From assembly GCA_032595675.1 (NCBI GenBank), contig JAVQMD010000003.1, positions 124,001 to 188,000 of the forward strand: a DNA stretch of 64,000 nt, given 5' to 3'. The DNA is from Candidatus Electrothrix rattekaaiensis (GTDB lineage Bacteria > Desulfobacterota > Desulfobulbia > Desulfobulbales > Desulfobulbaceae). The notes under the pieces were generated by a model. The model had not been told where the DNA came from, searched no databases, and saw only the letters and a program-made list of their open reading frames with translations. Every line of letters starts with the position of its first letter. The first letter of the stretch is position 1. Shown here one piece after another: positions 4,827 through 30,563 of the stretch. The translations under genes were made by a program, and so were the position numbers.

Positions 4827-6488
<1,662 letters not shown>

Positions 6489-15259: not shown

Positions 15260-16336
15260 TTAGGCCGTGGTTATCTGGAGGATATCCACCAGCCTGCCAC
15301 CGTAATCGGTGCGGATCATCTCCCAGAGGCCGGTGTAGTCGTTCACGGTCAGGTTGAGCGCGGTCAGGGGCGAACCGGCAAAACCGGAAAGGGTGACATC
15401 GCCGTTGTGGGTCACAGCCAGCTCCGGGCCTGCGGCCCCGTCTTGCTCCATGTCCAAGAGGCGGAAGACCAGCTCCTCCTGCTGGAGATCCTGGATCACC
15501 TCCACCCGCACTGTGCTGTCCGCAGACAGGGCACCGCCGGTGACCACCACGTTGGGCGCGGCTGCGCTGCCGGTCAGGATGCCGTGTTCCGGTGGGTTGG
15601 GATGACTGAATTGGCTCAGGGTCAGGGGCGTGCGCAGCGGCAGACTGAAGGCCCCGGTGCGCGGACTGCCGTTCTCGGTGTACCGGGTGGTGATGGAGAC
15701 CCGGTACTCGTTGTTCCACGGGTCGTCTTGGGGCGGCACATCCGGCATGACCAGCACCTCGGTGTTGTTGATTGGCCCGAAGCGGCTCTGCACGGTGCTG
15801 CCACTGCGGGTGCCGGTGAGCAGGCATTGCTCGCCCTGTTTCTGGGGATCAAAGAGCAGGTCTGTGCCGGTCAGGCGGAGCAGGCCCTGGGGGTTGAGGA
15901 CATTGTCCAGGCTCCAGACCGTGTCCTCGGCCCCGGCAAGCACCGGCGCCTTTTCCGTGGGCGGGAGCCGCTCAAACTCCACCTGCTGCCGCACCCGCTC
16001 AACAGAATCTCTGGCTGCAAAGGCTCTGACCTTGACAAAGCTCTTGTCCGCAGGCAGGGGCTGGTCCACTGAATCCAGGCGCACGGCAAGGGAGAGGTGA
16101 TAGGTGAAGGCGTTCTCAAAAGAGACCTGGTTGCCCTGAAGCAGCTGGTTGAGCAGCTCCTCGTCCCGGGCCCGGAGGATGCTTTCCACCAGATCCGCAC
16201 TCCAGAGCGGGTTCTTTTCCGAGAGAATCCGGGCCATGCCCGCATAATCAACGGTTTCCTTGGGCATAACCCGTGCGCGATAGGAGCGAGGTTTGGTCAG
16301 GGCATTCACATAGGGCCGCCATTCTACTTTCGACAT
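15260..16336 (-). CDS. HU-like DNA-binding/DUF4469-type protein, paralog 1
   Basis: A 358-aa protein. The N-terminal half (about 1-125) looks like the divergent HU-type DNA-binding domain found with DUF4469: VEWRPYVNAL, a YRARV strand, an LLNQLLQGNQVSFEN turn and FTYHLSLAVRL. The middle and C-terminal parts look like beta-sandwich modules and end in a GLWEMIRTDYGGRLVDIL motif. The start at 16336 has GGAGG 8 nt upstream; an ATG 29 codons earlier lacks this. The paralog at 28404-29483 matches along its whole length. TTGACA and TACGCT boxes (16395-16423) precede it, with a palindromic array behind them. No signal peptide is seen. The exact role is unknown. Confidence 0.75.
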   Translation of the reverse strand: MSKVEWRPYVNALTKPRSYRARVMPKETVDYAGMARILSEKNPLWSADLVESILRARDEELLNQLLQGNQVSFENAFTYHLSLAVRLDSVDQPLPADKSFVKVRAFAARDSVERVRQQVEFERLPPTEKAPVLAGAEDTVWSLDNVLNPQGLLRLTGTDLLFDPQKQGEQCLLTGTRSGSTVQSRFGPINNTEVLVMPDVPPQDDPWNNEYRVSITTRYTENGSPRTGAFSLPLRTPLTLSQFSHPNPPEHGILTGSAAAPNVVVTGGALSADSTVRVEVIQDLQQEELVFRLLDMEQDGAAGPELAVTHNGDVTLSGFAGSPLTALNLTVNDYTGLWEMIRTDYGGRLVDILQITTA

Positions 16337-16394: not shown

Positions 16395-16423
16395 AGCGTA
16401 AAACTGCGGCAAGGATTTGTCAA
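16395..16423 (-). promoter_or_regulatory. Sigma70-like promoter of HU/DUF4469 paralog 1
   Basis: On the minus strand a perfect TTGACA (16418-16423) is 17 bp from TACGCT (16395-16400). The same pair with the same spacing stands before the second TPR gene at 26978-27006, inside a 52-bp stretch that is about two-thirds identical without gaps (16373-16424 versus 26956-27007). Confidence 0.6.
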
Positions 16424-16454: not shown

Positions 16455-16560
16455 GGACGGGAATCTCGATACCGTTATCGGGCTGGCCCGAAAGTACTAT
16501 CGGGCTGGCTCGCAAGTGGTATCGAGCTTCTCCCGATCACACTATCGGGAATTGTCGGTA
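16455..16560. repeat. Array of ~22-nt palindromic units upstream of HU/DUF4469 paralog 1
   Basis: TATCG cores occur at 16476, 16498, 16520 and 16543, that is every 22-23 nt, mostly as TATCGGGCTGG. Inverted partners CCCGA or CTCGC lie between them at 16487, 16509 and 16532. TCCCGAT and ATCGGGA at 16531-16550 form a perfect 7-bp inverted pair. The array lies about 30 bp upstream of the -35 box of the HU/DUF4469 gene. Confidence 0.75.
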
Positions 16561-16587: not shown

Positions 16588-16655
16588 TGTAGGGGTCGCC
16601 CCCTGTGGCGACCCTGCCTATGAAAGGGCGGGCAAGCACAGGGGCTTGCCCCTAC
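16588..16655. repeat. Dispersed palindromic repeat, copy 2
   Basis: Begins TGTAGGGGTCGCCCC, contains GGGCGGGCAAGCACAGGGG and ends GCCCCTAC. Same family as copies at 12755, 43201 and 46677. It overlaps the 3' end of the TPR gene and supplies its stop codon, just as copy 1 does for rtcB. Confidence 0.85.
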
Positions 16656-17923
16656 CGGGCCAGATTATCCAGCCATTGCTGCACCTTCTTGGCATCGGGA
16701 TGCTGCATTGCCCCCATTTCTTCATACAGGCTCAGACTCTTCCGCCATAGTTCTTCCGTCTGATCTAGGTCACCGCGTTGCTTATACATAATACCCAGAT
16801 TAGCGTGGTCTCTGGCTATACCTTCCTTGCTTCCCAGTGCTTCATTAAGCTCCAGGGCCTTTCTGTACATCTCCTCGGCCTTGTCCATCTCCCCGCGTGT
16901 CTTATACACAATGCCCAGATTGCCGTAAGCCTTTGCCATACTTTCTTTATTGCCCAAGGCTTCATCAATCTCCAGCACCTTCCCGTACATATCCTCCGCC
17001 TTGTCCAGCTCGCCGCGTATCCGATACACCACACCCAGATTGCCGTAAGCCTTTGCCATACTTTCTTTATTGCCCAAGGCTTCATCAAGCTCCAGCACCT
17101 TCCTGTACATCTCCTCCGCCTTGTCCAGCTCACCGCGTGTACGATACACATTGCCCAGATTGCCAAGAGCCACTGCCTGCTCCTTTTTGTCCTGATGCGC
17201 TTCAGCCAAGGCCAGTACCTTGCGGTGTGCTTCTTCCGCCTTATCCAGCTCGCCTGTGCGACGAAGCAGAAGCCCCAGCTGATTCCAGCCGTCCGCATTG
17301 TCCGGGTCAAGCTCCACCGCCTTTCGGTAGGCAACCAGTGCTTCCTTGGGGTTATTCATATACGCCAATGCCCCCAAGTGCCGGGCCGCTGCCGCTGCTT
17401 CCTTATTCGCCTGCCGCCCTTCAGCCTCCTTGCTGCGCAGCACCTCAGCAAAGATGGCCTGGGCCTTGGCTGTATCGCCCTGCTCCAATGCCCGCAAGGC
17501 ATCGTTGATGCTGGCAGTAGACGCGCCAGTCTTGGACAGAGCGGTGATGGCTTCCGTCAATGCCTTGATCTGCTCGTCCTTGGCCTCCAGTTGCCCTTGC
17601 AGCGGCCCAACCAACTTCTCAGCCAGTTTACCCGCATTCACCGCCACCACCTTCTCCTTCTCCATGTAGCTGTTCCACGCGGACAAGCCTATCCCGGAGA
17701 ACTGCAAGCCAAAGCCTGCCAGCAGCAGGACCAGGGCCAGCCAGAACCCGTAGCGGAGAAAGAGCCTGATGATCAGGGCACTGTCTTTCTTGGTCGCCTG
17801 GGCCAGTAACCCAGACCGCATCAGCTGCCAGTGAATGCCGTAAGCCAGCATCATTACAAAGCCCACCAGCACCAGCGGGTGCGTCAGATACGGGGCAACC
17901 TTGTCAAAGCCTGTGATGTTCAT
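16652..17923 (-). CDS. Membrane-anchored TPR protein, paralog 1
   Basis: A 423-aa protein. The N-terminal ~75 residues hold two membrane segments (about 13-30 and 51-70) and are nearly identical to the anchor of the paralog at 25485-26909. A coiled-coil stretch with KDEQIKALTEAITAL follows, then TPRs from about 175 to the end. Four to five central units are 40 residues (120 nt) long and almost identical, with the pattern AKAYGNLGVVYRIRGELDKA. Such TPRs bind partner proteins; the topology places them on one face of the inner membrane. AGGAG lies 7 nt before the ATG. The hydratase-fold gene ends 51 bp upstream. Function unknown. Confidence 0.8.
   Translation of the reverse strand: MNITGFDKVAPYLTHPLVLVGFVMMLAYGIHWQLMRSGLLAQATKKDSALIIRLFLRYGFWLALVLLLAGFGLQFSGIGLSAWNSYMEKEKVVAVNAGKLAEKLVGPLQGQLEAKDEQIKALTEAITALSKTGASTASINDALRALEQGDTAKAQAIFAEVLRSKEAEGRQANKEAAAAARHLGALAYMNNPKEALVAYRKAVELDPDNADGWNQLGLLLRRTGELDKAEEAHRKVLALAEAHQDKKEQAVALGNLGNVYRTRGELDKAEEMYRKVLELDEALGNKESMAKAYGNLGVVYRIRGELDKAEDMYGKVLEIDEALGNKESMAKAYGNLGIVYKTRGEMDKAEEMYRKALELNEALGSKEGIARDHANLGIMYKQRGDLDQTEELWRKSLSLYEEMGAMQHPDAKKVQQWLDNLAR
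16801..17160. repeat. 120-bp tandem repeats inside the TPR gene
   Basis: Three consecutive 120-bp units (16801-16920, 16921-17040, 17041-17160) differ at few positions. Each encodes one 40-residue TPR. The high nucleotide identity indicates recent unit duplication or ongoing gene conversion. Confidence 0.85.
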
Positions 17924-25484: not shown

Positions 25485-26909
25485 TTATTGGGTGGAGGTG
25501 GTGCGCTGTTGGGCCAGCTTGTCCAGCCATTGCTGCACCTTCTTGGCATCGGGGGAACTTATTTCCTGAAACAGGACCAGACTTTTTTTGTGCATTTCCT
25601 CTGCCCGGTCAAGCTCGCCACGTTTTTCATACAAGAATCCCATATTACCATACTGCTTCGCCATGCCTTCCTTGCTGCCCAAGGCTTCGTTGATTTCCAG
25701 AGCTTTCCTATACATCTGCTCTGCTTGGTCAAGCTCACCGCTAGCTGCGTATAGATTACCCAAGCTGCCGTATATGTTCGACAATATCTTTTTATCTCCC
25801 AATAACCGACTCATTTCGAGAGCTTTTATGTACAACTGTTCAGCTTGATTGAGATCACCGCGCATGTTGCATACAATGCCAAGATTGACGTAGGTTTTCG
25901 CTGTATTGCGCTTGTCTCCTAAAGCCTGACTCATTTCAAGTCCTTTCCTGTACCATTGCTCCGCCTGATCAAGATTGCCACGCTTTGCGTACATAGTACC
26001 CAAATTAATGCAGGCTCTCATCATAGCTTTCTTGTCTCCCAAGGATTGGCTTGTTGCAAGGACAGCTTTGTATAACTGCTCCGCTTTGTCTAATTCGCCG
26101 CGAATCAAATATACAGTGCCTAGGTTGATGTTCGCACAAGCTGTGCCTTCCTTACACCCAGAGTGCTTATTGATTTCAAGAGCTTTCTTATACATCTGCT
26201 CCGCTTGGTTAAGCGCACCGGTGCGCGTCAACAAAAGCCCCAAATGATTCCAGCCATCCGCATTGTCCGGGTCAAGCTCCACTGCCTTTTGGTAGGCAGT
26301 CAAGGCTGCCTTGGTGTCGTTCATATAGGCCAATGCGCCCAAAGATCGAGCCGCTTCTGCGGCTTCCTTGTATGCCTGTTTCCCTTCCTCCTCCTTTCTT
26401 TTGGAGAAATCAACAAGAAGGGCCTTGGCTTGCTCCCCATTGCCCCGCCTCATAGCCTCCAATGCCTGCTGTTTCATTTTGGCAGAGGCATCGGTTTTGA
26501 TTACTGTAGCAACTGCTTCTGTCAGCGAGTTGAGCTGCTGATCTTTCGTCTCTATCTGCTGATCTTTTGCCTTGAGCTGCTCCTGAAGAAAGTATTGCTC
26601 TGCTACCTGTCTCTGGTTGATTGCTCGTAATTGCTCTACTTCCTTTTGCAACTGTTTCGCTTCTGCGTCTATATAGCTATTCCATGCTACCAACCCAAAA
26701 CCCGCCAACAGCAGCACCAAGGCCAACCAGAACCCGTAGCGGAGAAAGAGCCTGATGATCAAGGCACTGTCTTTCTTCGTCGCCTGGGCCAGCAACCCGG
26801 ACTTCATGAGCTGCCAGTGAATCCCGTAAGCCAGCATCAGCACAAAGCCCGCCAGCACCAGCGGGTTTGTCAGATACGGGGCAACCTTGTCAAAGCCTGT
26901 GATATTCAT
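25485..26909 (-). CDS. Membrane-anchored TPR protein, paralog 2
   Basis: A 474-aa paralog of the protein at 16652-17923. The first ~75 residues (two membrane segments) are nearly identical also at DNA level. The adjoining coiled coil is longer here (KEVEQLRAINQRQVAEQY, then KAKDQQIETKDQQLNSL). About seven 40-residue TPRs follow to the end. The central TPRs have diverged much more than in paralog 1. ATG at 26909 matches the paralog start. A TTGACA-17-TACGCT promoter lies about 70 bp upstream. The function is unknown; the constant anchor with variable repeats suggests a family with changing binding partners. Confidence 0.8.
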   Translation of the reverse strand: MNITGFDKVAPYLTNPLVLAGFVLMLAYGIHWQLMKSGLLAQATKKDSALIIRLFLRYGFWLALVLLLAGFGLVAWNSYIDAEAKQLQKEVEQLRAINQRQVAEQYFLQEQLKAKDQQIETKDQQLNSLTEAVATVIKTDASAKMKQQALEAMRRGNGEQAKALLVDFSKRKEEEGKQAYKEAAEAARSLGALAYMNDTKAALTAYQKAVELDPDNADGWNHLGLLLTRTGALNQAEQMYKKALEINKHSGCKEGTACANINLGTVYLIRGELDKAEQLYKAVLATSQSLGDKKAMMRACINLGTMYAKRGNLDQAEQWYRKGLEMSQALGDKRNTAKTYVNLGIVCNMRGDLNQAEQLYIKALEMSRLLGDKKILSNIYGSLGNLYAASGELDQAEQMYRKALEINEALGSKEGMAKQYGNMGFLYEKRGELDRAEEMHKKSLVLFQEISSPDAKKVQQWLDKLAQQRTTSTQ

Positions 26910-26977
26910 GGTTCTGCTCAATGCTCCTCAGGTCAAGGGTAACTGCTTTATGTAACTGCGAAAAAGACGCAAAGGTC

Positions 26978-27006
26978 AGCGTAGGACAGCGGAGGGGCTT
27001 TGTCAA
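26978..27006 (-). promoter_or_regulatory. Sigma70-like promoter of TPR paralog 2
   Basis: TTGACA (27001-27006) and TACGCT (26978-26983) on the minus strand are 17 bp apart. It is the same promoter as that of HU/DUF4469 paralog 1, inside the shared 52-bp leader. ATCGG elements lie just upstream (27013, 27031), perhaps the stump of an array. Confidence 0.6.
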
Positions 27007-27043
27007 GCGGAATATCGGCGGCAAGGGCGCATCGGCACAGGCT

Positions 27044-27080
27044 GGCTTGATCCTATTGATGCGTTAAGGCATGAGTGAGG
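27044..27080. repeat. 37-bp direct repeat, right copy
   Basis: A perfect copy of 24691-24727, the tail of the macB-like permease gene with its stop codon, now without the rest of the gene. Together the two copies bracket 2.3 kb holding the toxin-antitoxin pair and TPR paralog 2. Confidence 0.95.
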
Positions 27081-27081
27081 A

Positions 27082-27156
27082 ATGAATGAGTCATCTGCCT
27101 TCGTTGCATGCAAGCAAGACCTACGCGGCTTCATTAGAGAGACAGAAACAATATGA
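27082..27156 (+). CDS. Tiny ORF 1 with AFVAxKQDL motif
   Basis: A 24-aa frame beginning MNESSAFVACKQDLRG. GTGAGGA, the end of the 37-bp repeat, lies just before its ATG and may serve as its ribosome binding site. Its stop overlaps the ATG of the next small ORF. It shares AFVAxKQDL with that ORF's C-terminus. It may be a gene fragment; function unknown. Confidence 0.3.
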   Translation: MNESSAFVACKQDLRGFIRETETI

Positions 27157-27284
27157 CAAATGTCCGTAATGTATTCATCGGCCTAACGCTAAGATGCGCA
27201 GATCTGTTTAAGAACAACGAAATCAGCCAAGTTGAGAATGCGTTGTTCGCTTTCGTTGCACTCAAGCAAGACCTTCTTGGCTGA
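27153..27284 (+). CDS. Tiny ORF 2 with AFVAxKQDL motif
   Basis: A 43-aa frame beginning MTNVRNVFIGLTLRCADLF and ending AFVALKQDLLG. It overlaps ORF 1 by 4 bp. The DNA of the shared motif (27099-27121 and 27247-27273) is an imperfect repeat. Translational coupling is possible, but nothing shows that it is expressed. Confidence 0.35.
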   Translation: MTNVRNVFIGLTLRCADLFKNNEISQVENALFAFVALKQDLLG

Positions 27285-27308
27285 TTGATTGACATCACAG
27301 CGGGTTAT

Positions 27309-27905
27309 TTAATTCCAGCAGTTGCCGGACTGGTCATTAATAGAGACCCAGAAGCGGCGTTCATTATTAACATTCCCGTAAGCATACCAAGCCCAGCCTC
27401 CTGATGATAAGGAACTTGTCAAAGGCCAAGTATCGCCATAATATTTCTCCGATCCCATCCCTTTGATGTACTTTCCATCGTGAAACTCTGCCATGCGATA
27501 ACCTTCTCCCAAGGCCATTGCGCATGCAGTATTCGCCGCCTTAAGGCTCTCTATCGTTTTCCCCTGCATCGGTTCTGTCAAGCCTATCCTTCCGCCTGCC
27601 CATCCGCGATAATACGCTGCAGGCATTGCATGTGCTTGGCCTGTCATTGCATAGTTAGGGCGAGGACTCTCGTCTGGTTTGATGCATAAGATCGGCAAAG
27701 CGACTGAACAGCTCGTGTCTCCTTTTATCGGATCACACTGCTTTTTCCCTTCGATCTGAGGTTTACCGGCGCAGGCTACCAGATCAATCTCATGTTGATT
27801 ATCATGCGCAGCTACTCCCCAAGTCATCCCCTTTCTGTCATTCTCAGCAGCACAGGGGTATGCACAGAGAAGCATCATTGCAATCCAAATCCATTTTATA
27901 CTCAT
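27309..27905 (-). CDS. Exported protein of unknown function
   Basis: A 198-aa protein starting at 27905, with AAGGAAG just upstream. The signal peptide covers about residues 1-19 and ends PCAA. Several Cys suggest disulfides in the periplasm or outside. The C-terminal 90 residues contain ANTACAMALGEGYRMAEFHDG, a Trp/Tyr-rich stretch and RFWVSINDQSGNCWN at the very end, a compact domain style seen in secreted proteins that I cannot name. It lies between TPR paralog 2 and the palindromic array, with no clear operon partner. Confidence 0.6.
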   Translation of the reverse strand: MSIKWIWIAMMLLCAYPCAAENDRKGMTWGVAAHDNQHEIDLVACAGKPQIEGKKQCDPIKGDTSCSVALPILCIKPDESPRPNYAMTGQAHAMPAAYYRGWAGGRIGLTEPMQGKTIESLKAANTACAMALGEGYRMAEFHDGKYIKGMGSEKYYGDTWPLTSSLSSGGWAWYAYGNVNNERRFWVSINDQSGNCWN

Positions 27906-28090
27906 AGCATTCTTCCTTGAATCTATGGTGATGTGCAGGAAATCAAAACAGTTTATCTGCTCCTTCCGCTCATCTTGAACAGACAACAATACTTGTGGCG
28001 CAGAGGGAAAGCAATATAAAAACATCAATTTTCCTGAAAAATTGCATATATCCACTTAGAACCCCGCCCTCCCTGCTTCTCCCGGAAAAA

Positions 28091-28290
28091 CATAGAGAGT
28101 GCTTTTTCCAAAACCATTCCCTATGTCGTACCACGACCATTCTCTATGTCATAGACGAGGACTCCCTATGTCGTATGACGAGATAGGGAATGGTCGTCCT
28201 GCGAGGACTCCCTATGTTTTGATACGAGATAGGGAAAGGTTTTCCGACGAGCATTCCCTATGTTTTATAACGGGACAGGGAATGGTTTTT
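28091..28290. repeat. Array of ~23-nt palindromic units upstream of HU/DUF4469 paralog 2
   Basis: The forward core ATTCCCTATG (or ACTCCCTATG, ATTCTCTATG) starts at 28116, 28139, 28161, 28207 and 28253. The inverted core ATAGGGAA or CAGGGAATGG lies near 28183, 28229 and 28276, and a further inverted half near 28091. The unit spacing is 22-23 nt, and 46 nt once units alternate in direction. Three strong hairpins can form. The array ends about 27 bp before the TTGACA box of the next gene. Confidence 0.85.
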
Positions 28291-28316
28291 TATTCGCACG
28301 GGACAGCAGAAAACTG

Positions 28317-28345
28317 TTGACAGGGGAAAACTCTCGTCTTAGGTT
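28317..28345 (+). promoter_or_regulatory. Likely promoter of HU/DUF4469 paralog 2
   Basis: A perfect TTGACA (28317-28322) with a weak TAGGTT -10 candidate 17 bp later, about 60 bp before the gene. The -35 box is convincing, the -10 is not. Confidence 0.4.
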
Positions 28346-28403
28346 GAACAGTACATACTTTTCATGCAGCTATCTCAACTATTTGAACAAAAGGAGACAG
28401 ATC

Positions 28404-29483
28404 ATGGCAACAGTTCAATGGAGGCCCACACCTAACGCACTCACCACTCCCGTCTCATACCGGATGCTTTTCCTGCCGAGAAACGTGGTGAACACTGAGG
28501 AACTGGCTGCACGCATGGCTGCGGCCCTGCCCAATTATAGCGCGGAGGAGCTTCGCACCATCTTGGCTACCCGCAACGAGATCGTTCAGCAGAGCCTGAT
28601 CAACGGCGAGCAGGTGACCGAGGAGAATAATTTCACCTATGCCCTCTCCTTTACCGGCAGGCTGGATGGCCCGGATGATCCGCCTCCGCCGGTGGACCAG
28701 TGTCTTCAGGTGCGCGTCCATGCCTCGCCACCCTTTGTCAACGAGGTCCGTCATGCCGCCCGGCTGGAGCGGCTGTCCCGTGAAAAGAAACTCCCTCTGA
28801 TCAACACGGCTGAGGACACCCTGCTCAGGCTGGATAATGTCCTCAACCCGAACGGTGTGCTGCGGCTCACCGGGGAAGATCTTTCTTTTGATCAGGATCA
28901 GGGCACGGGCGAGTGCGTGATTGAGGGGACCGAGAGCGGTCAGACTATGCAGAGCCGGGTGAATCTGGTGACTAACACTGCAATCATGCTCATGCCGGAC
29001 ATCCCGGCACAGGCCCATCCTTGGAATAATGAGTACACCGTCTCGCTGACCACGCACTACAGCACCCACGGCACACCGCGCACCGGCACGTATGATCGGA
29101 TGCTACGCACTCCGCTGCCCCTGACCAATTTCAGCCACCCTAATCCACCGGAGGTCGGCATCCTCACCGACGATGCGGCTGCCCCCTATGTCTCGGTCAC
29201 CGGCGGAACGGTTTCGGCGGATGAAACCGTGCGCATTCAGGTCACCCAGGATCTGACCGAAGAAGAGCTCCGGTTCTCGCTGCTTGATATGAAGGAGGAA
29301 GGCGCGGCGGGCGACGAGGTGGCCGTGACAGCAAACGGGACATACACTCTGCCCGGCTTCAGCGGCTCGGCCCTGAGTTCCCTGGAGATTACGGTCAATA
29401 ACTATAGCGGGCTGTGGGAGATGATCCGCAATAGCTACGGTGGCAGGTTGATTGATGTGCTGGAGATTGAGGTTGGTTCATAA
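28404..29483 (+). CDS. HU-like DNA-binding/DUF4469-type protein, paralog 2
   Basis: A 359-aa protein matching the one at 15260-16336 in every segment: VQWRPTPNALTTPVSYR at the start, LINGEQVTEENNFTYALSF for the HU-like arm, and DTLLRLDNVLNPNGVLRLTG and MLMPDIPAQAHPWNNEYTVSLTT in the middle. It ends with GLWEMIRNSYGGRLIDVLEI. AAGGAG lies 9 nt before the ATG. It likely binds DNA through the N-terminal domain, while the rest looks like beta-sandwich modules of unknown role. It stands alone behind the palindromic array rather than being followed by the M48 gene as in paralog 1. Confidence 0.75.
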   Translation: MATVQWRPTPNALTTPVSYRMLFLPRNVVNTEELAARMAAALPNYSAEELRTILATRNEIVQQSLINGEQVTEENNFTYALSFTGRLDGPDDPPPPVDQCLQVRVHASPPFVNEVRHAARLERLSREKKLPLINTAEDTLLRLDNVLNPNGVLRLTGEDLSFDQDQGTGECVIEGTESGQTMQSRVNLVTNTAIMLMPDIPAQAHPWNNEYTVSLTTHYSTHGTPRTGTYDRMLRTPLPLTNFSHPNPPEVGILTDDAAAPYVSVTGGTVSADETVRIQVTQDLTEEELRFSLLDMKEEGAAGDEVAVTANGTYTLPGFSGSALSSLEITVNNYSGLWEMIRNSYGGRLIDVLEIEVGS

Positions 29484-29771
29484 TACGATAGCATGATTGC
29501 AACAGGAGGAGGTGATGAAGGCAAAGGAGAAGGCCGGTTGGGAAAAGAGGCGTGTGCCGGGCAAGGCTTGGTAACGTGTGTCACCAAGAGAGATGTTATC
29601 AGGCGAATATACCAGCATCAGGCTGTATTGTTTTGTATTTCCCCTTGACCATCATTGCTTCGTATGTCAATATTTTTAGGCAAAAGCAGCATGAGCAGCA
29701 TTACTCAACCACAACACAACTATAAAGGTGAGTTCATGACGTAGCATCATCTTTACAAAGGAGGAGAAACC

Positions 29772-30563
29772 ATGGCAGACAAACCACTGAACACACCCAC
29801 AGAGGCAGAGAAGATTCCCTCAAATCAGTCAGGGACATCGGAACCACCAAGTGCCAAGATGGCCTACAGAATGGTCATGACGATGCTTGGCATTTTGTGT
29901 TTTCTTATCCTTGCTGTGTTGCTTCTTGTCTATACCACGTCAGGCGGCAACGCGGAGGATGTTGTTGAATTCGGTAAATGGACGGTGTCTGTGCTGCTGG
30001 GCGCATTCGGCGCATGGATCGGCGGAGGTGCTGCCTATTTCTTTGGGAAAGAGAATATGGTTGAGAGCAACCGTTCAACCGAAGCTGTGTTGCAGATTCA
30101 GAAGAATGCATTGCAGAACACAGGCAAGCGCGATTATATCAAAGAACTGACCTTGTCCACTATCAACAGTACCTTTAACTTCAATCCTCACTCAACAAAA
30201 GAAGATATTGTCAACTGCCTTACCGGCCATGCTGATTACTGGTGGGTGCCGGTCTTTGATGAGGAAGGAAAGGGAATAATAGAGGACCTCCTGCATGTCA
30301 GGATTATCTGGGATGATCAGTTTGATAACGGGGAGACGGTGGCGGCGTTGCTGGAGCACCTTGCTGACGACGAAGAGCTTGGCAGGAAGTACGACAAACT
30401 GCACGGCCCCTCATTCTTCATCAAAGTAACACCTGATGACAAGGTTGCCGACACAGCCCGCAGAATGGAGAAGTCAGGGGCAGCTATTGGCGTGGTCACT
30501 GACGAGAAAGGCAAGCCGACCCACTGTTTTACCAAACATAACCTGTTGACAACGCAGAGCTGA
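29772..30563 (+). CDS. Membrane protein with CBS-like C-terminal domain
   Basis: A 263-aa protein with a Pro/Ser-rich cytoplasmic tail, two membrane helices (about 33-55 and 69-92) and a short amphipathic linker. The soluble part (about 120-263) has two halves resembling a CBS pair, with WWVPVFDEEGKGIIEDLLHV and then KVTPDDKVADTARRMEKSGAAIGVVTDEKG. CBS pairs sense nucleotides. GGAGGAG stands before the ATG. The CBS call is by eye only. It is monocistronic, near the bacteriohemerythrin gene. Confidence 0.6.
   Translation: MADKPLNTPTEAEKIPSNQSGTSEPPSAKMAYRMVMTMLGILCFLILAVLLLVYTTSGGNAEDVVEFGKWTVSVLLGAFGAWIGGGAAYFFGKENMVESNRSTEAVLQIQKNALQNTGKRDYIKELTLSTINSTFNFNPHSTKEDIVNCLTGHADYWWVPVFDEEGKGIIEDLLHVRIIWDDQFDNGETVAALLEHLADDEELGRKYDKLHGPSFFIKVTPDDKVADTARRMEKSGAAIGVVTDEKGKPTHCFTKHNLLTTQS

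Follow-up and report, generated by a model that had tools for sequence, protein, structure and literature searches.

In the window, by which we mean the whole stretch of 64,000 nucleotides that was analysed, a gene for an HU-like protein with a DUF4469 domain (paralog 2) is preceded by a promoter and, upstream of it, by an array of short inverted repeats (array 2). A second gene of the same family (paralog 1), on the opposite strand, has its own array (array 1) and its own TTGACA box (Table 1). This common order of array, promoter and HU-like gene had been noticed in a sequence-only reading of the window, and it holds at both loci. The same reading described array 2 as units spaced plainly at 22-23 bp. 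The array is real and counts nine copies, against at most four copies of the best 12-mer in 60 dinucleotide shuffles, but the copies alternate in orientation and the centre-to-centre steps are, in order, 25, 23, 22, 21, 25, 21, 25 and 21 bp. The TTGACA box is indeed perfect, but the gap of about 27 bp that had been given for it is longer (Table 1). Array 1 is weaker taken alone, its best 12-mer occurring five times against a maximum of four in 60 shuffles. The two arrays had also been credited with a matching core differing in one base (C versus A); since the two cores are unrelated, the likeness is superficial. TPR genes lie near both arrays (window positions 16652-17923 and 25485-26921), and a TAC trinucleotide microsatellite occupies positions 6384-6457.

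Table 1. Features of the two array-bearing loci, in window positions
Feature	Position	Strand	Description
Paralog 1	15260..16336	-	same family, 358 aa; in Pfam only a sub-cut-off HU-HIG match, 18.3 bits vs 26.2
-35 box TTGACA, paralog 1	16418..16423	-	precedes the paralog 1 gene
Array 1	16465..16549	-	unit CCCGATA-N4-TATCGGG, repeated every 22-23 bp in front of paralog 1
Array 2	28090..28284	+	nine alternately inverted CATTCCCTATGT copies (at most 3 mismatches, both strands), 46-bp super-period
-35 box TTGACA (perfect), paralog 2	28317..28322	+	32 bp past the last unit
-10 box TAGGTT, paralog 2	28340..28345	+	17-bp spacer after TTGACA
Paralog 2 (HU/DUF4469 gene)	28404..29483	+	ATG at 28404, 359 aa; from Pfam, translation, AlphaFold and fold search

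The protein family and its distribution

Paralog 2 consists of an HU-like N-terminal domain (residues ~1-125), an Ig-like DUF4469 domain (134-223) and a C-terminal part that is mostly beta. Its DUF4469 match (PF14734) scores 24.9 bits, above the gathering score of 22.6, while that to HU-DNA_bdg (PF14848) stays below its own (23.2 vs 30 bits), so that the relation to the latter family rests on the fold. Paralog 1 has no DUF4469 match in Pfam at E 0.1. With the AlphaFold model of paralog 2 (mean pLDDT 89.1, pTM 0.62), Foldseek gives matches at E below 0.001 to 4fmr alone, in its four chains. This is the structure of BVU_2165, a putative DNA-binding protein from Bacteroides vulgatus, and the best match has E 8.3e-12 and a TM score by target of 0.49. 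Chains of HU and IHF follow at E 0.004-0.007, amid antibody matches to the Ig-like parts, with TM scores by target of 0.65-0.81 (for example, 0.73 for 5l8z and 0.81 for 6n2l). The predicted structure of the N-terminal domain thus has an HU-like fold. A divergent paralog, P0003, gives a weak sequence match to IHF-alpha (E 0.52 and 0.0026).

The closest known relatives are the Bacteroidota proteins with HU-DNA_bdg and DUF4469 domains (PF14848 and PF14734), to which 4fmr belongs: they supply the top fold match, and the DUF4469 domain of paralog 2 passes the Pfam cut-off. They differ in sequence (17-18% identity over the structural alignment with 4fmr) and in length (265 residues vs 359 in paralog 2). 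Three homologs from Parabacteroides, on plasmids of one strain, have no upstream array, unlike most of the copies examined in cable bacteria, and the arrays were therefore perhaps added in the latter. With the nucleoid proteins HU and IHF the family shares the fold of its N-terminal domain, but not the RNP intercalation motif that is a trait of the HU/IHF beta-arm and that is absent from all 106 proteins inspected. It also differs from them in an apparent strong sequence specificity and in being acidic on average, the HU region having a mean net charge of -2.0 and being basic only in residues 1-30 and 105-125. If these proteins bind DNA, the mode of binding would differ, judging by the residues, from that of HU. 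Clades of the HU/IHF superfamily are reportedly described in a paper of 2017.

The genome of Candidatus Electrothrix rattekaaiensis contains 15 matches to the family. Among 57 relatives searched, this genome counted, the family occurs in 11, which belong to two genera: all eight genomes of the same genus, all three of the second, and none of the other 46. As many as 35 matches are found in one genome. When 198 genomes were sampled across the phylum, at least six of them also among the 57 relatives, this genome alone had the family. A genome collection yielded 52 related loci, from Candidatus Electrothrix, Electronema, Desulfobulbaceae MAGs, Desulfobulbus sp. F5 and a single Fermentibacteraceae MAG; the last copy (L065) is in a MAG labelled Candidatus Fermentibacteraceae, which may be misbinned. 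DUF4469 by itself exceeds the Pfam cut-off at 34 places in six of 18 genomes searched, all of the same genus, in a list from which paralog 2 itself is absent. No relatives of paralog 2 or of P0003 were found in the plasmid collection, nor any of the family alignment in IMG/VR, and on these grounds an origin from a phage, plasmid or virus was rejected. Neither window paralog has a match in PADLOC.

The analyses below rest on 111 copies. Eleven of them are from the genome itself, whose two second halves of split genes and two small C-terminal fragments were left out. The other 100, from nine relatives, were fetched from 114 candidate places picked among the matches listed, after removal of two copies cut by a contig end and twelve fragments or divergent copies. 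Some family genes are split, decayed or fragmentary (L009/L011, L010/L012, L014, L219), and the array is still present at L011, L012 and L219, which suggests a birth and death of family copies.

Upstream arrays, their units and the promoter

Arrays are a property of the family as a whole. At a fixed threshold and with lags of 22, 23, 24, 45, 46 and 47, an upstream array is detected in 93 of the 111 copies, compared to 21 of 1517 windows of equal length that were drawn as controls from 798 kb of the same genome (the 64-kb window included); with lag 23 alone, the figures are 87/111 and 5/1517. The upstream regions of the 111 copies have autocorrelation peaks at lags 23, 46 and 69, the peak at 23 being sharp (0.381 vs 0.254 after shuffling), and no other lag between 4 and 79 rises above 0.278. 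In 92 of the 111 regions, lag 23 is better than all 43 other lags. The 18 copies with no array at the threshold include the one full-length copy of genome G006, and several of them fall just under it. Arrays reach about 12 units. Departures from the 23-bp pitch partly track relatedness: copies of the CCCGATA group have 22-23 bp and those of the GTATGC group 23-24 bp, and in each case a satellite or relic array of the group has kept its pitch.

It had been considered that the array might be simply a 3' REP cluster of another gene. This is not so, given the 93 arrays upstream of the 111 family genes and the lack of a conserved neighbour gene in 51 family loci, where the commonest neighbours are TPR/STAND genes (11 of 51). 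A plasmid-type partition system was also rejected, as no partner ATPase or GTPase or other conserved neighbour accompanies the family in these 51 loci. CRISPR arrays were rejected as an identity for the repeats in view of palindromic units of ~18 bp at 23-bp pitch, with ~5 bp between units.

A palindromic motif search describes the units as palindromes of about 18 bp, with most of the information 3-9 bases from the dyad, a region that the fit itself favours. A quality rule was passed by 76 of the 111 arrays and failed by 35, among them both window arrays, which are thus in neither the register test nor the co-variation test. An exact TTGACA is found in 107 of the 111 copies, and the 73 arrays that have it among the 76 were used to examine the register. 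The distances from the last dyad to TTGACA form a ladder, at about 3, 26, 49 and 72 bp. Taken modulo 23, they fall at 1-5 in 64 of the 73 arrays, for a chance expectation of 5/23, and in 54 of 62 once near-identical orthologs are removed; the motif search imposes the pitch but not this register. In the L003 group, a weak unit sits on the -35 box itself. For the window arrays the register was worked out by hand. In array 1, the four dyads nearest to the promoter lie 2-4 modulo 23 from the -35 box; in array 2 it is the midpoints of adjacent units that lie 1-3 bp modulo 23 from it, and only these fit, the 12-base units themselves being half a step off the usual register.

Comparison of the arrays of orthologs bears on how the units might be read. 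Substitution frequencies are 0.05 at one base from the dyad, 0.12 at two, 0.03-0.09 at 3-9 and 0.14-0.18 at 10-11, from 16 of 17 ortholog pairs (one has too few shared units; the pair L156/L195, with 36 substitutions in 88, was kept). The units are foldable inverted repeats, and hairpins can be drawn from array 2, as the sequence-only reading had proposed, so that the repeats might work as RNA or as single-stranded hairpins, in a non-coding RNA or a cruciform. We find this scarcely credible. In the 76 well-resolved arrays, from which the window arrays are excluded, compensated pairs are fewer than in shuffles (112 observed vs 147 expected, z -4.0); an Rfam search of window positions 27000-30000 gives nothing at E 1; and the array sits upstream of the promoter of the gene. 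The hairpin or RNA reading was rejected on the compensation test and Rfam. Since the deviations within arrays are uncompensated, recognition of half-sites in double-stranded DNA is likelier than hairpins.

Motif variation and the HU-like domain

Within a genome, the arrays have different motifs: only 3 of 355 motif pairs are alike, one of them a recent duplicate, while between genomes 58 of 2346 are. The sequence-only reading had proposed a co-evolved specificity between each protein and its array, from the one-base difference that, as seen above, does not exist; across the family, the motif does follow the HU domain. For 73 copies (the 76 arrays minus L012 and L194, whose proteins are short, and the divergent L013), motif similarity correlates with the identity of the HU domain (r 0.437), of DUF4469 (0.338) and of the C-terminus (0.196). 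For the 64 non-redundant copies, the coefficients are 0.376 for the HU domain, 0.240 for the rest of the protein and 0.134 for the leader between promoter and gene. The correlation with the HU domain persists given the rest of the protein (partial r 0.308) or given the leader (0.360; permutation p 0.001 each), whereas that with the rest of the protein given HU drops to 0.079. The leader is physically nearer to the array than the HU domain, yet it has the lower correlation; linkage as the sole cause of the co-variation is thus insufficient with this control, even if leader similarity may saturate.

Natural swaps illustrate the point. In L175/L191, HU domains of identity 0.91 go with C-termini of 0.45 and a motif similarity of 0.94, and in L118/L142 the corresponding values are 0.89, 0.57 and 0.93. 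The motif of paralog 1 is common to its two nearest copies by HU domain, L106 (0.90) and L110 (0.89). The core of paralog 2 is likewise found at its nearest HU copy, L104 (identity 0.87; motif ATAGGGAATG), and is not visible in the next-nearest L107, L100 and L120 (0.81 to 0.74). There are also counter-pairs, in which similar HU domains accompany unlike motifs (L005/L102, 0.82 and 0.25; L136/L147, 0.86 and 0.40; L122/L130, 0.82 and 0.30), and among the 15 non-redundant pairs with HU identity of 0.80-0.93, motif similarity exceeds 0.6 in 67%. Such pairs, near in HU and unlike in motif, may be the most informative for a specificity code.

Whether the co-variation follows the residues of the HU-like arm had been put forward as a check, and it cannot be pinned to them. 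In a per-column partial correlation with the motif, five of the top 20 columns belong to HU, that is, the signal is not localised to HU. When 25 concordant pairs are set against 59 discordant ones, residues 105-120 stand out (identity 0.70 vs 0.50), in disagreement with a windowed correlation along the protein, which peaks over about residues 16-80. At the level of the domain, these sequence comparisons over further paralogs, a check that the sequence-only reading had proposed, support the idea that each paralog has its own array and that the array core varies with the HU-like protein.

It might be argued that the repeats are passive, tandem or REP-like sequences that expand without a function, so that co-variation would reflect mere linkage to the gene start. 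Near-perfect tandem arrays do exist (for example, L198 and L210), and arrays last beside split or decayed genes. Against this stand a mostly fixed pitch of 23 bp in arrays of independent sequence, the register with the -35 box, the more conserved core and the low correlation for the leader, with the reservation made above about saturation, and we hold a functionless expansion to be highly improbable.

The same genome has a second multi-copy family (14 matches) of ~115-127-aa proteins ending in ...EYEMxGGTRxSERKKPKKK (L272-L276, L278-L281, L283, L284), two members of which have no Pfam or NCBIfam match. In all 11 copies examined, the best upstream lag is 21 bp (or 42), each with a different sequence; 21 being a multiple of 3, a coding explanation of this pitch is possible. 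That an unrelated family also has arrays, that arrays precede other genes as well and that the RNP arm is missing from an acidic HU domain would all suit a reading in which another DNA-binding protein or a partner recognizes the arrays, the HU-like protein being merely an output or cofactor. This is unlikely in our opinion, since motif and HU domain of neighbouring array and gene vary together and since the many motifs would need equally many regulators, with no linked regulator gene conserved.

Satellite arrays and a possible mode of action

For three of the four motifs searched, arrays also occur away from the cognate gene (satellites); no clustered sites were found elsewhere for paralog 2. 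The motif of L006 forms arrays at three further places of its own genome. One stands in front of a family-gene remnant of 18 N-terminal residues, promoter included; another has a weak C-terminal match (E 0.007); the third (L198:4060-4300) has eight units in exact 23-bp steps and lies between a Cas3e gene and a lone CRISPR-repeat-like sequence, which we take to resemble a type I-E repeat. Satellites that abut remnants of family genes may be relics. One satellite has the paralog 1 motif: its four units, spaced by 22-23 bp, lie between maf and a gene that by eye is glycosyltransferase-like.

Satellites of the motif GAGNATGCNNGCATNCTC were found in two single-contig genomes that carry the cognate gene. 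In the window's own genome, where the intact copy nearest to that gene has an HU identity of 0.59, the motif has no occurrence with 0-1 mismatch and 21 scattered ones with two mismatches (7 for the reversed pattern). In both GAGNATGCNNGCATNCTC genomes, one satellite adjoins a CRISPR array and another precedes an LRR gene, which Pfam identifies as LRR-Roc-COR in G004 and which in G007 looks by eye like a homolog. The start of a TPR gene in G004 has two units as well. The CRISPR arrays are directly beside the 23-bp satellite (L287:3368-3894 and L292:4199-4714) and have a repeat that contains TACCCTATGAAGAGGGTATTAAGAC. Satellite positions are conserved between the two genomes (L287/L292 and L288/L291).

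Several other arrays were observed in passing. At L288, L291 and L210, near LRR-Roc-COR or STAND genes, the satellite or orphan array is, by eye, next to another lattice, which is AGTATCGGGCGAGG-like. Two 22-bp arrays, L226:6453-6612 and L234:14031-14260, which by eye have one common motif (CCTCAGCCTATCC..GGTATG), precede recC and a 154-aa gene without a Pfam match. A 23-bp array at L231:18197-18382 lies ~340 bp before a gene with a match to MqsR, which is the toxin in a toxin-antitoxin pair. An apparent preference of satellites for conflict genes is no more than a lead, and other satellite or orphan arrays adjoin purB, maf and recC.

We think it probable, from sequence comparison, that each HU-like paralog reads its own operator array and thereby regulates its own gene and a few distant loci. 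In this model, the family, expanded in cable bacteria, would comprise paralogs each with a sequence specificity of its own. The protein, presumably as a dimer, would read a palindromic operator of ~18 bp, repeated about 4 to 12 times, mostly at a 23-bp pitch, just upstream of its own sigma-70-type promoter. As lattice and -35 box share one register, a further step lands on that box, and the array may nucleate a nucleoprotein filament that forms cooperatively and either covers the promoter or controls it. The result would most likely be negative autoregulation; the promoter being already near consensus, repression and activation are alike compatible with it. At the few other loci with the same operators, the protein would act in trans.

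A bolder version, which we regard as unlikely, would make of the paralogs nucleoprotein 'keys' that are self-addressed and orthogonal to one another, with as many as about 35 in a genome. Each protein would polymerise only on its own array, set its own level through the promoter lattice and silence or organise private satellite loci, CRISPR-cas and STAND/LRR conflict genes among them. The pitch would then be a property of the family (23 bp here, 21 bp in the second family) and the sequence a property of the paralog. Another reading makes the arrays address labels or anchors, centromere-like or nucleoid-organising, which the paralog coats, with only secondary effects on promoters. A regular lattice of up to about 12 units, motifs that differ within a genome and satellites outside family genes, in places conserved between the two single-contig genomes, are what one would look for in anchors. 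The -35 register in 64 of 73 arrays would then be unexpected, and the 51 loci contain no partner ATPase or other conserved neighbour; anchoring as the main function appears quite unlikely.

Autoregulators with iterated operators are known from the omega repressor of pSM19035, ParR/parC and TubR/tubC, where a regular array of short repeats at the promoter precedes or accompanies the protein gene. These are single plasmid systems, most of them with a partner. The present family resembles them in the regular repeat array at its promoter and differs in its numbers (up to 35 matches per genome), its differing motifs, its 23-bp palindromic pitch and the lack of a conserved partner gene. The literature searched contained nothing on such gene-specific arrays; the accessible portions of PMC10926707, PMC10580974, PMC10030654 and PMC11976967 treat insertion sequences and other repeats and not arrays of this kind. 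According to the abstract of PMC13064052, cable bacteria have yet to be brought into pure culture.

Should every paralog indeed read an array of its own, the family would be a large natural experiment on the specificity of the HU-like fold, with dozens of protein-operator pairs. Some of these pairs differ in few residues and yet in their motif, which would make an HU-like specificity code testable. The proteins might also provide orthogonal regulators for synthetic biology and open up gene control in cable bacteria. Finally, with satellites next to cas3, to a CRISPR array and to STAND or LRR genes, one may ask whether defence genes of a multicellular bacterium are under the control of these proteins.
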